In this document: positions 3,447-8,083 of the stretch, piece by piece
How the letters are laid out: each line of letters opens with the position of its first letter
Position numbering within the stretch: the stretch's first letter is position 1
From: Phycisphaerae bacterium
GTDB lineage: Bacteria; Planctomycetota; Phycisphaerae; Phycisphaerales; UBA1924
NCBI GenBank assembly: GCA_030426605.1
Contig: JAUHXM010000001.1
Span: 1 to 64,000 of the forward strand
Length of the DNA stretch: 64,000 nt
Direction of reading: 5' to 3'
Position numbers and translations under genes: made by a program
Notes under the pieces: model-generated
Told to the model about the DNA's origin: nothing
Database searches by the model: none
The model's input: only the letters and a program-made list of their open reading frames with translations

Positions 3447-4391
3447 TCAAGCCGCCCGGCGTTTGGCCGCGATCTTCGCCGCGGCGGGCACCCGCACGTT
3501 TCGCGCCAGCCCGAGCGCCTCCATCGTCTTGATCACGATGTAGCTCAGATCGAACTGCCACCAGCGGAGCCCGTGCCGGGCCGACGTCGGGAACGCGTGG
3601 TGGTTGTTGTGCCACCCTTCGCCCATCGCCAGCACGCCGCAGATCACGTTGTTCCGGCTCTCGTCGTGGCTCTCAAACGGGCGTGACCCCCACACGTGGC
3701 ATACCGAGTTCACGCTCCATGTCACGTGGTGCACCAACAGCACGCGCACCAGCCCGCCCCAGATGAACCCGAGCAGGACGCCCTTCCAGCTCATCATGAT
3801 CAGCCCACACACGACCGCGGGCATCAGCATCCCAACCAGCACCCACACCGGGAACGTGAGGCTCAGCCAGCGGACCATGCGGTCCTTCTGGAGATCCGGC
3901 ACGTAGCGCTTCAGGTCGGGGTTGGTGCCCCGGGTGATCCACCCCATGTGGGCGTGCCACATCCCCCGAATCATGTTCCAAACACCCCCGCCATGCGTGT
4001 GCGGCGAGTGCGGGTCGTTGTCCGAATCCGAGTGCTGGTGGTGCTGGCGGTGGTTGGCGACCCATTGCAGGATCGATCCCTCCATCGACATCGACCCGAG
4101 CACGCCGATGATGAACGTCATCACGCGCCCAGTCTCGAACGATTTGTGCGTGAACAGACGGTGATACCCGACCGTGACGCCGAGCCCCGTCAGCAGATAC
4201 ATCACCGCGAGCAGGCCCAGGGGCACCCAATGCACCCCGAACGGCCAGAGCAGCACGATCGCCGCGAGCAGCCCTGCGAGGGGAAGCAGGATGCCGGCGA
4301 TGTTCATCGCGCGCACCCAAGGCGAAACGGGGCGTTCGACGCCCACCATCGCCGCGCCTCCCGGGTCCGTCCGCGGAGTCTGATTGGTCAT
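3447..4391 (-). CDS. Acyl-CoA/fatty-acid desaturase
   Basis: HRLFTH, HRQHHQHSD and HNNHHAF histidine boxes; start MTNQTPRTD. Confidence 0.92.
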   Translation of the reverse strand: MTNQTPRTDPGGAAMVGVERPVSPWVRAMNIAGILLPLAGLLAAIVLLWPFGVHWVPLGLLAVMYLLTGLGVTVGYHRLFTHKSFETGRVMTFIIGVLGSMSMEGSILQWVANHRQHHQHSDSDNDPHSPHTHGGGVWNMIRGMWHAHMGWITRGTNPDLKRYVPDLQKDRMVRWLSLTFPVWVLVGMLMPAVVCGLIMMSWKGVLLGFIWGGLVRVLLVHHVTWSVNSVCHVWGSRPFESHDESRNNVICGVLAMGEGWHNNHHAFPTSARHGLRWWQFDLSYIVIKTMEALGLARNVRVPAAAKIAAKRRAA

Positions 4392-4531
4392 GAATCGAGT
4401 GCCGATCGCGTGTGGAGCGCCGCAAGGGCCCACCGGGGGAGTATCGCTACCCCGATCGTACGCCCGTGGGGGTGCCGGGGTTCGGAGTCTTCTTCGGGAC
4501 CGAGCCCCCGCAGATTCACGCGCCCGGCGAA

Positions 4532-4537
4532 TACACT
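4532..4537 (+). promoter_or_regulatory. -10-like TACACT, 6 nt before dnaX ATG 4544
   Basis: TACACT-cgctcc-ATG. Confidence 0.6.
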
Positions 4538-4543
4538 CGCTCC

Positions 4544-5659
4544 ATGGCCTACACCGTCCTCGCACGCAAACACCGCTCCCGCTCGTTCGAAGAAGTCGTC
4601 GGGCAGGAGCCGATCGCCCGCACGCTCCGCGCCGCCATCGACGCCGGACGCGTGGCCCACGCCTACCTCTTCTGCGGCACCCGAGGCGTCGGCAAGACCT
4701 CTACCGCCCGAATCTTCGCCAACGAGCTCAACAATGCCGACGGAAGCGCCGACGTGCAGGCCGCGATCATGCGCGGCGACGACACCGACGTCATCGAGAT
4801 CGACGGCGCCTCCAACCGAGGCGTCGAAGAAGCCCGCGACCTCATCGCCAACGCGATCTACCGCCCCATGCGCGGGCCTTACAAAATCTACATCATCGAC
4901 GAAGTCCACATGCTCACGCGCGAGGCGTTCAACGCGCTGCTCAAGACGATGGAAGAGCCGCCCGAGCACGTGAAGTTCATCCTGTGCACGACCGAGCCCC
5001 AGAAGGTCCCGCCGACGATCCAGAGCCGGTGCCAGCGGTTCGACTTCCGCGCGATCGCGACGCCGCAGATTGCCGATCACCTCGCCCACGTCATCAAAGA
5101 AGAGGGCTACGACGCTGACGCGGATCTCGTGCACATGGTCGCCCGCCTGGGCAACGGCTCGATGCGCGACGCCCTGAGCGTCCTCGACCGCCTCATGGCG
5201 TCGGGCGACAAGAAGCTGACCGTCGCGCTGCTCGAGAGTGTGCTCGGTCTGCCCGACCGTGAGGTGATCGGCGGCCTCATCGACGCCCTCGCCGACGGCG
5301 AGCCCGGTCCCGCGATCGACAAGGCGGGCGAGCTCCTCGCCCGCGGCACCTCGGCCGACCAGGTCCTCGAAGCCCTGCTCGACCGCCTCCGCGACCTCAT
5401 GGTCCTGTCCGCCTGCGGCCCGGAGACCGAGCTCGTGGATCTCGCGGGCGAGACCCGCAAGCAGGACTTCGAGCGCGCACAGAAGTTCGACACCGCCTGC
5501 CTCGTGCACATGATCGCCGTCACCGAGGCGATCCAGCGGTCGATCCGCAGCTCGTCCGCCCCCCGCGCGCTCTTCGACGCGTGCATCGCCCGATTGGCGC
5601 TCACCGAGCGCCTCGCGGACGTCACGGCTATGCTGGAGTCCGCCTCGGGAAAAGCCTGA
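4544..5659 (+). CDS. dnaX: DNA polymerase III subunit gamma/tau, zero-frame (short) product
   Basis: MAYTVLARKHRSRSFEEVVGQEP, Walker A GTRGVGKTSTARIFA, IIDEVHMLTREAFNALLKTMEEPP. Confidence 0.95.
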   Translation: MAYTVLARKHRSRSFEEVVGQEPIARTLRAAIDAGRVAHAYLFCGTRGVGKTSTARIFANELNNADGSADVQAAIMRGDDTDVIEIDGASNRGVEEARDLIANAIYRPMRGPYKIYIIDEVHMLTREAFNALLKTMEEPPEHVKFILCTTEPQKVPPTIQSRCQRFDFRAIATPQIADHLAHVIKEEGYDADADLVHMVARLGNGSMRDALSVLDRLMASGDKKLTVALLESVLGLPDREVIGGLIDALADGEPGPAIDKAGELLARGTSADQVLEALLDRLRDLMVLSACGPETELVDLAGETRKQDFERAQKFDTACLVHMIAVTEAIQRSIRSSSAPRALFDACIARLALTERLADVTAMLESASGKA

Positions 5660-5680
5660 GGGCGTCGCCTTCGCGCGCCC
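5647..5680 (+). promoter_or_regulatory. dnaX: Putative programmed -1 ribosomal frameshift signal in dnaX
   Basis: G_GGA_AAA at 5647-5653 in correct phase, spacer gcctga (contains the zero-frame TGA), hairpin GGGCG(U)CGC-CUUC-GCGCGCCC at 5660-5680. Confidence 0.65.
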
Positions 5681-5880
5681 CGCGTGGGCGTCCGGCGTCG
5701 CCCGCACAAGCACCCAGGCAGCACCCGCCCAGCGAGAAGGTCGAGCTCAAGCCCGGCGCGGGCAACCCGCGCCCCAAAGATGACACCCCGCCGGAGAACG
5801 ACCCCACGCGCCATCCGCTCGTGATTCAGGCGATCGCGGCGTTCGACGCCGAGATCAAACGCGTCTACCCAAAAAACTAA
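5653..5880 (+). CDS. dnaX: -1-frame C-terminal extension of DnaX (tau-like tail)
   Basis: ...SEKVELKPGAGNPRPKDDTPPENDPTRHPLVIQAIAAFDAEIKRVYPKN; the ending resembles DnaX C-termini, and no independent start signal is evident. Confidence 0.65.
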   Translation, partial: SLRASPSRAPRGRPASPAQAPRQHPPSEKVELKPGAGNPRPKDDTPPENDPTRHPLVIQAIAAFDAEIKRVYPKN

Positions 5881-6224
5881 GTCTTTTCGTCTCTCCGTCT
5901 CTCCGTCTCTTCTCTTCCGGGCTTCGTCCACGCGATGTCCGGGTCCTTGTGCATCACGCCCGCCGCACGCTTCACGCATTGCGCGCACGCGAACGCGCCC
6001 GTCGAGGGCGATTCCCACAGCGGGAATTCCCCGCCCTCCATCAGGCAGAGCGTGCATTTCGTGCCGTCCGCCGGCGCGATCCCGTCGTCATCCACCGCGA
6101 GCACGCGGTATGCCACCGACAGGCATTTCACGCACAGGCACGACCCGCGGTGCCCCTCGATCATCGGGCGGTCCTCGGCCCACGAGCTCTCGCAGAAATC
6201 GCAGAGGAAATCCTCGGCCGTCAT
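5877..6224 (-). CDS. Hypothetical Cys-rich protein
   Basis: MTAEDFLCDFCESSW...CLCVKC...CTLC...CAQC; stop codon overlaps the dnaX tail stop. Confidence 0.6.
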   Translation of the reverse strand: MTAEDFLCDFCESSWAEDRPMIEGHRGSCLCVKCLSVAYRVLAVDDDGIAPADGTKCTLCLMEGGEFPLWESPSTGAFACAQCVKRAAGVMHKDPDIAWTKPGREETERRRDEKT

Positions 6225-6256
6225 GCTGTTCGGGTCGGCGCCTTCGCGGTGCACGG

Positions 6257-8083
6257 TCAATCTCCCGTCGGCACGAGCTGATGCCTCGCGAGTTGCTGAT
6301 ACACGGCGCACCGCTCGACGAGCTCGCCGTGCGTGCCCTGGTCGATCACCGTGCCCGCGTCGAGCACGACGATCGAGTCCGCGTTCATCACGGTGCTCAG
6401 CCGGTGCGCCACGACCAGGCTGGTGCGCCCGGCGCTGAACTCCGCGATCGCCTCGGTGATGAGCGCCTCGGAATGCGAGTCGATCATGCTGGTCGCCTCG
6501 TCGAGGATCAGGATCGCCGGATCACGCAGGATCGCGCGCGCGATTGCCAGCCTCTGCCGCTGCCCGCCCGACAGCGTGAGCCCCTGCTCGCCGAGCACGG
6601 TGCTCAGCCCGTCGGGCAGCTTCTCGACGATCTCCTCGGCCCGCGCCCGCCGCACAGCGTCCATGATCTTCTGGTCGCTCACGCCGTCGAGCCCGTAGGC
6701 GATGTTGTCCCGCAGCGGCCGCGCGAACAGCACGGTCTCCTGCGTCACCACCCCGATCTGCGCGCGCAGGCTCGTGACATCCACGCCCGCGATGTCCGTC
6801 CCGTCCACGAGGACGCGTCCGGCAGCGGGATCGAACAACCGCGGCACGAGGCTCAGCAGCGACGTCTTCCCGCTCCCGTTCGGGCCCACGAACGCCACGG
6901 TCTTGCCGAACGGGATCTCGAGCGACACGCCGTCGATCGCGGGCCGTTCGGCGCCCGGGTATGTCACACGCACATTGTCGAACGCGATGGACGCCTTGTG
7001 GCGCGCGAGGGCGGGCTTGCTGTCGTGCCCGGGCTCGATCGGGGCGTCGAGGAGCGCCGCGATGCGGTCCGCCGCCGCGCCGGACTGCTGGATGTCGTTC
7101 ACGAGCCCGGTCACCGGCTTCAGCGACGCCCCGGCGATGCCCAGCGCGAAGAACGTGCCGAAGAACTCGGTCTTGTCGAGGTGCCCGTCGAGAATCAGCT
7201 TGACCGCGACCAGCGCGAGCGCGCCGAGGGTGAACATCGAGAGGACCTCGACGAACGGGCTCGCCGCCGCCCGCGCCGTGCGGACGCGGAGTTGCTGGCG
7301 GAGCACATCGCGCGAGATCGCGTTGAAGCGCTTGGTCTCATGGTCCTCCGTGCCGTGGACCTTGACGACACGCATGCCGCCGATCGCCTCGTTCGCGGCC
7401 CGGTAGAGCCCCGCGCGCCCCCTCAGCGCGCTGCGTGCCGCGCGCCGGATCCGCTTGCCCAGCTTTCGGATGATCGTGAAGAGGACCGGCGCGACGATCA
7501 TCGCCGCGAGCGCCAACTGCCAGTTGATGATGAACGCCGCGACGAGCCCGGCGAGCCCCTTTGTGATCTGCGCGACCGCCTTGGACAGCAGCGCCGTGAA
7601 CCCCTGCGCGAGCGCCTCGGTGTCCACGATCACCCGGCTCACCGGGTCGGACGACCCTTCGGACACGATCCGCCCCAGCGGCAGGTGCGCCACGCGCCCG
7701 AACAGCTTCTCGCGCAGATCCGCGACGGTCCGGAAGACGATCGAGAGCGCGAGGTACTGGTGCAGGAAGTTCGCGGCGGCGCCGACGACCGTCATCACGC
7801 CCAGCACGACGACGATCCAGACCACCGCCTCGAACGGGCCCGTGTTGGGAACGGCGTTCACCCATGCGTCAGGGATCATGCCGTTGATTTGCGCGTCCAG
7901 ATCGCGGACGAGCTCGGGCAACCCCTTGCGCTCGGACTCGTCGAGGACCGCCTTGAGGATCGGCAGCAGCCCGATGAGCCCCGCACCGAGCCCGCCCGCG
8001 CTGATCACGGCGAACACGATCGCGATCACCAGCCGAACCTTGTCAGCCAGCAAGCCCCTCGCGAGTTGCCAGAACGCATCCAT
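6257..8083 (-). CDS. ABC transporter, fused permease/ATPase (MsbA type)
   Basis: 608 aa; [37 protein letters not shown]. Confidence 0.93.
   Translation of the reverse strand: MDAFWQLARGLLADKVRLVIAIVFAVISAGGLGAGLIGLLPILKAVLDESERKGLPELVRDLDAQINGMIPDAWVNAVPNTGPFEAVVWIVVVLGVMTVVGAAANFLHQYLALSIVFRTVADLREKLFGRVAHLPLGRIVSEGSSDPVSRVIVDTEALAQGFTALLSKAVAQITKGLAGLVAAFIINWQLALAAMIVAPVLFTIIRKLGKRIRRAARSALRGRAGLYRAANEAIGGMRVVKVHGTEDHETKRFNAISRDVLRQQLRVRTARAAASPFVEVLSMFTLGALALVAVKLILDGHLDKTEFFGTFFALGIAGASLKPVTGLVNDIQQSGAAADRIAALLDAPIEPGHDSKPALARHKASIAFDNVRVTYPGAERPAIDGVSLEIPFGKTVAFVGPNGSGKTSLLSLVPRLFDPAAGRVLVDGTDIAGVDVTSLRAQIGVVTQETVLFARPLRDNIAYGLDGVSDQKIMDAVRRARAEEIVEKLPDGLSTVLGEQGLTLSGGQRQRLAIARAILRDPAILILDEATSMIDSHSEALITEAIAEFSAGRTSLVVAHRLSTVMNADSIVVLDAGTVIDQGTHGELVERCAVYQQLARHQLVPTGD

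Follow-up and report, generated by a model that had tools for sequence, protein, structure and literature searches.

The dnaX gene in the window, a 64,000-nucleotide stretch of a Phycisphaerae bacterium contig, very probably carries a three-part −1 programmed ribosomal frameshift cassette of the E. coli type, with the outcome reversed. Judging from the sequence, ribosomes that stay in frame would read GGA AAA GCC and stop at TGA, yielding a gamma-like clamp-loader subunit of 371 aa. At the heptamer G_GGA_AAA the ribosome would be slowed and pulled by an SD-like GGAG on the 5' side and a stem-loop on the 3' side, and tRNA-Gly and tRNA-Lys would there re-pair one base back (GGG AAA). The fraction of ribosomes shifted to the −1 frame would pass the TGA and make a 445-aa long form, and dnaX would produce two proteins. 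We infer the ribosomal nature of the slippage, its efficiency and the presence of both forms in the replisome. The features are listed in Table 1.

Table 1. Features of the dnaX frameshift cassette and its products in the window.
Feature	Position	Strand	Description	Basis
dnaX zero frame	4544..5659	+	ATG 4544 to TGA 5657-5659; 371-aa short (gamma-like) form, domains I-III	
SD-like GGAG, 5' stimulator	5635..5638	+	8 nt upstream of heptamer	sequence and family anti-SD pairing peak
Slippery heptamer G_GGA_AAA	5647..5653	+	zero-frame codons GGA AAA, −1 codons GGG AAA	sequence
−1-frame tail of long (tau-like) form	5653..5880	+	75 codons 5653-5877, stop TAA 5878-5880	
Zero-frame TGA stop	5657..5659	+	one codon past heptamer; same distance in 119/139 reversed family loci	
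Downstream stem-loop, 3' stimulator	5660..5703	+	starts 6 nt after heptamer	minimum-energy fold of 55-nt region
KVELKPG	5737..5757	+	remnant of last strand of tau C-terminal domain	protein alignment A1
C-terminal motif HPLVIQAIAAFDAEIKRVYPKN	5812..5877	+	common to tau C-termini	

The zero frame encodes a DnaX AAA+ clamp-loader core with lid and domain III (TIGR02397 dnaX_nterm, 368.7 bits against a cut-off of 250, E = 3e-110), and it also matches PF13177, PF22608 and PF12169. It ends TCG_GGA_AAA_GCC_TGA. The original prediction placed an in-phase G_GGA_AAA here, and the phase is right; this is its sole in-phase occurrence among the 17,746 codons of the window genes. The same prediction had normal decoding give the short form and a shift give the long one, which agrees with the stop after the heptamer and the tail in −1. 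Its estimate of a 75-aa extension, reached by a −1 slip past the TGA, and of about 445 aa in all also holds (370 + 75 codons = 445 aa). The long form reads ...SASGK|SLR across the junction and ends in HPLVIQAIAAFDAEIKRVYPKN. In the window dnaX is solitary, lying between a desaturase gene (3447-4382, minus strand) and a convergent gene (5877-6311, minus strand) for a small protein with a ClpX-type C4 zinc finger (PF06689, E = 4e-7), whose stop overlaps that of the −1 tail. Five other loci (L023, L025, L030, L036 and L051) have a frame starting MFDQFKNLG, probably ybaB, directly 3' of dnaX.

Both stimulators are present in the window. The heptamer and hairpin had been recognized as parts of the cassette, while the SD-like element had been overlooked. 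Across the family, anti-SD pairing energies give a position-specific peak at this element, which is found in 91% of the family, compared with 7-24% at control offsets and 27% at long-A sites. Downstream, a 21-nt hairpin at 5660-5680 had been drawn; it folds as proposed (−13.3 kcal/mol alone, z −2.8), but the structure is probably longer, and the hairpin is an alternative or partial fold of the stem-loop in Table 1. The fold of 5658-5712 has an energy of −29.9 kcal/mol (z −1.5). G001, a genome of the same genus, has the outer arms of this stem, GGGCGUCGCC and GGCGUCGCCC, without any change; there the interior carries substitutions and a 6-nt insertion relative to the window and pairing is still kept. 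The structure (window z −1.5 to −2.8) falls within the distance of about 5-9 nt expected of a −1 frameshift stimulator, and the family-wide structure peak occurs at this place only. Searching Rfam with window positions 4300-6400 gave no match with an E of 1 or below.

The heptamer itself belongs to the V_VVA_AAR class, which in E. coli is among the most efficient when combined with a strong stimulator (PMC4066793); according to the introduction of that paper, earlier E. coli work called G_GGA_AAA inefficient. Genes for tRNA-Lys(UUU) and tRNA-Lys(CUU) are both present in the window genome, and the final base of short sites, defined below, is A in 158 of 160. These two observations would fit the suggestion (PMC5009743) that having a second lysine tRNA to read AAG makes this codon less prone to slippage. 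A strict pattern for a tRNA-Gly(UCC) gene had no match in the window genome, where 14 tRNA genes lay outside its reading.

Seen in one genome alone, an open −1 frame of 75 codons together with a GC-rich hairpin is weak evidence. We collected dnaX from 231 genomes of the order, with 147 of these loci belonging to the family of the window. Every one of the 147 retains an XXXAAAZ heptamer in phase soon after the core, and in 139 of them the zero-frame stop falls 0-7 codons past it with the tail in −1. The stop lies exactly one codon past the heptamer, as in the window, in 119 of these 139. In family loci with more than 500 nt downstream, the −1 frame stays open across 61-252 codons. A heptamer 0-2 codons before the stop is observed in 135/147 loci versus 0.10 expected from the rate of XXXAAAZ heptamers inside the same genes, a count to be read with the shared ancestry of these genomes in mind, since they are not independent; the four-A form by itself, however, needs at least nine changes on the dnaX tree. 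Chance thus fails as an explanation across the family.

The frame of the tail was examined with an HMM built from 65 in-frame tau tails of other lineages. Among 164 reversed loci it matches the −1 frame in 136, the zero frame in none and the +1 frame in 2. The expectation that relatives would conserve the tail in the −1 frame, and would keep heptamer and downstream structure with it, is borne out by these counts and by the structure peak at short sites described below. In the window and most of its family the stop comes directly after the site and a tau-type tail lies in −1, and this frame is both conserved and under coding selection, as for a frameshift site.

To compare mechanisms, sites were classed as short (A4, or A6-8) or long (A9-12), and structure was scanned in 45-nt windows folded against dinucleotide shuffles. 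Short sites have a structure peak just past the heptamer whichever frame holds the tail, with mean z at the peak reaching −2.4 for 19 reversed A4 sites, −1.8 for 120 reversed A6-8 sites and −1.8 for 12 in-frame A6-8 sites. The long sites (53 in-frame and 15 reversed) have no structure peak, with z near 0. Relatives with the tail in frame, also raised in the original prediction, usually have a run of 9-10 A and lack the structure. The SD-like element follows the same pattern as the structure, marking short sites and not long ones. The parsimonious reading of these sequences is that short sites would work by ribosomal frameshifting, with polymerase slippage presumed at long A runs. Both modes have been described, the ribosomal one in E. 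coli and the polymerase one in Thermus dnaX (PMC5009743). The site in the window is of the short class and has both stimulators.

This bears on the alternative that the window gene is recoded by transcriptional realignment, as in Thermus dnaX, with RNA polymerase slipping and the altered mRNAs then read normally. This very likely happens in relatives of the same order whose sites are runs of 9-12 A, and many of these relatives have a stop close by in each of the other two frames. Two short homopolymers combined can also slip polymerase (PMC3711429). The window offers only A4 after G3, a poor site and well short of the roughly nine or more A of the Thermus type, and polymerase slippage needs neither an SD nor a stem-loop, both of which short-run sites carry and long-run sites lack. 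We consider it improbable here. A decaying tail beside an incidental heptamer, with only gamma mattering, is less probable still: the tail is short and has lost its middle domain, but it is constrained as strongly as the core (dN/dS 0.20), keeps its C-terminal motif and has a stop that abuts the convergent gene.

Ribosomes might instead terminate at the TGA and restart in −1, making the tail a separate peptide. The −1 codon that overlaps the stop is usually NTG, which would suit this. Against it, the preceding base at A6-8 sites is C in 64%, A in 20% and G in 16%, so that the codon is mostly CTG, which seldom serves as a start; about 8 nt separate the SD-like element from the heptamer and about 16 nt separate it from the NTG, a spacing suited to shifting and too long for starting; reinitiation has no need to conserve a heptamer; and in four family loci the stop is 6-7 codons past it. 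Reinitiation is accordingly very unlikely. An assembly or sequencing error in a truly single-frame gene is the least probable reading of all. The assembly is a draft of 165 contigs, but the arrangement recurs in G001 (DHS20C14; L033, L077), an independent genome of the same genus, and in the majority of the remaining family loci, whose sequences have diverged, which dismisses a miscalled base at 5647-5659. Stop-codon readthrough was rejected because the tail lies outside the zero frame.

Returning to the frameshifted long form, its tail is under purifying selection as strong as that on the core. Compared with G001, the tail has a dN/dS of 0.20 when read in −1 but of 1.5 and 2.0 when read in the two alternative frames; the value for the DnaX core is 0.19. 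The terminal motif HPLVxxAxELFDAxI is found in 120/150 −1 tails, in 0/150 in either other frame and in 1/150 shuffled tails. It is also C-terminal in 19 of 54 in-frame DnaX proteins from other Planctomycetota and other phyla.

The window tail lacks the tau domain of its relatives: alignment A1 has a gap where the tau domain V-related C-terminal domain would be, and only the KVELKPG strand and the terminal motif remain. It has no match in Pfam or NCBIfam. Since the tau-tail HMM also fails to reach this short tail in −1, the case for its homology is made by the terminal motif and the alignment. In relatives, the −1 tails align to the portion of NCBIfam DnaX models that covers the tau C-terminus (E 4.5e-6 to 1.7e-4). 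One such tail is predicted to be well ordered at about residues 61-131, and a fold search with it gave no E below 0.001, its weak matches including DnaA domain I and E. coli tau domain V. These are weak but consistent signs that relatives' tails may hold a tau domain V-related domain. As the window tail is without it, the long form may lack some of the functions of tau. Genus g24 (L028, L226, L231, L238, L239, L244) also has G_GGA_AAA with a tail of about 70-80 codons lacking the tau domain, an arrangement apparently independent on the dnaX tree. We suggest tentatively, and with some doubt, that the frameshifted long form in the window's genus and g24 falls short of a complete tau: its polymerase-binding domain would have been deleted, leaving a linker and the conserved C-terminal peptide, and selection would maintain an old recoding signal for the sake of a clamp-loader isoform serving another role, within an order whose dnaX often switches polarity and mechanism.

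The window gene shares much with known systems. Like E. coli dnaX, it has, in the region after domain III, an internal SD, an X_XXA_AAZ heptamer and a stem-loop, giving two C-terminal forms. In E. coli, however, tau is in frame and the −1 shift at A_AAA_AAG gives gamma, whereas in the window gamma is in frame and the shift at G_GGA_AAA gives the long form. Thermus thermophilus dnaX makes the same pair of products from one gene but has an A9 run, tau in frame and stops in both other frames; this Thermus-type state is common in other families of the order and is not that of the window. Antonov et al. described in 2013 (PMC3711429) dnaX genes of Chlorobi and others that make tau only through recoding, and reversed-polarity dnaX was also described by Atkins et al. 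in 2016 (PMC5009743). In the two-ORF dnaX genes of the former paper, as in the window, the longer subunit needs recoding and the zero-frame stop directly follows the site. Of those 17 genes, 12 have runs of 7-10 A and are thought to use polymerase slippage; the window differs in its 4-A heptamer with SD and stem-loop and in belonging to a planctomycete family. Because it matches this published description, the window gene is a further case of known reversed-polarity dnaX. The literature searched contained no report of a whole planctomycete family using reversed dnaX, of repeated switching or of tau-domain loss, and clade-wide use, repeated polarity and mechanism switching and a tail without the tau domain are apparently new. 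Earlier records of this reversed recoding come from only a handful of other bacteria. Annotation by ordinary single-frame gene calling would cut dnaX short in most of the family and overlook the tail.

Four dnaX arrangements coexist in this one order, with short or long-A slip sites and, for each, the long form in frame or shifted. We mapped them on a FastTree phylogeny of the gene itself (227 genes), on which change counts are parsimony minima. Polarity has changed at least 18 times among the 227 genes, 4 of these within the family, site class at least 9 times, and the four-A form (G_GGA_AAA or C_CCA_AAA) at least nine times. An independent-pairs test of polarity against run length went in the same direction, with too few pairs (median p 0.06). 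The need for gamma, and why its mode of production varies, is an old question. The variation across the order is a natural experiment on what is selected, and the selected feature may be the presence of both forms, not which one is in frame. In eight family members the tail lies in the zero frame (G068, G075, G104, G105, G112, G132, G135 and G138; loci L248, L223, L245, L249, L235, L229, L193 and L217, respectively). Five of the eight have A9 runs, which suggests a return from ribosomal to polymerase slippage. The f6 loci (L306, L305, L308, L315, L286) combine A10-12 runs with reversed polarity, lack structure downstream and are Chlorobi-like.
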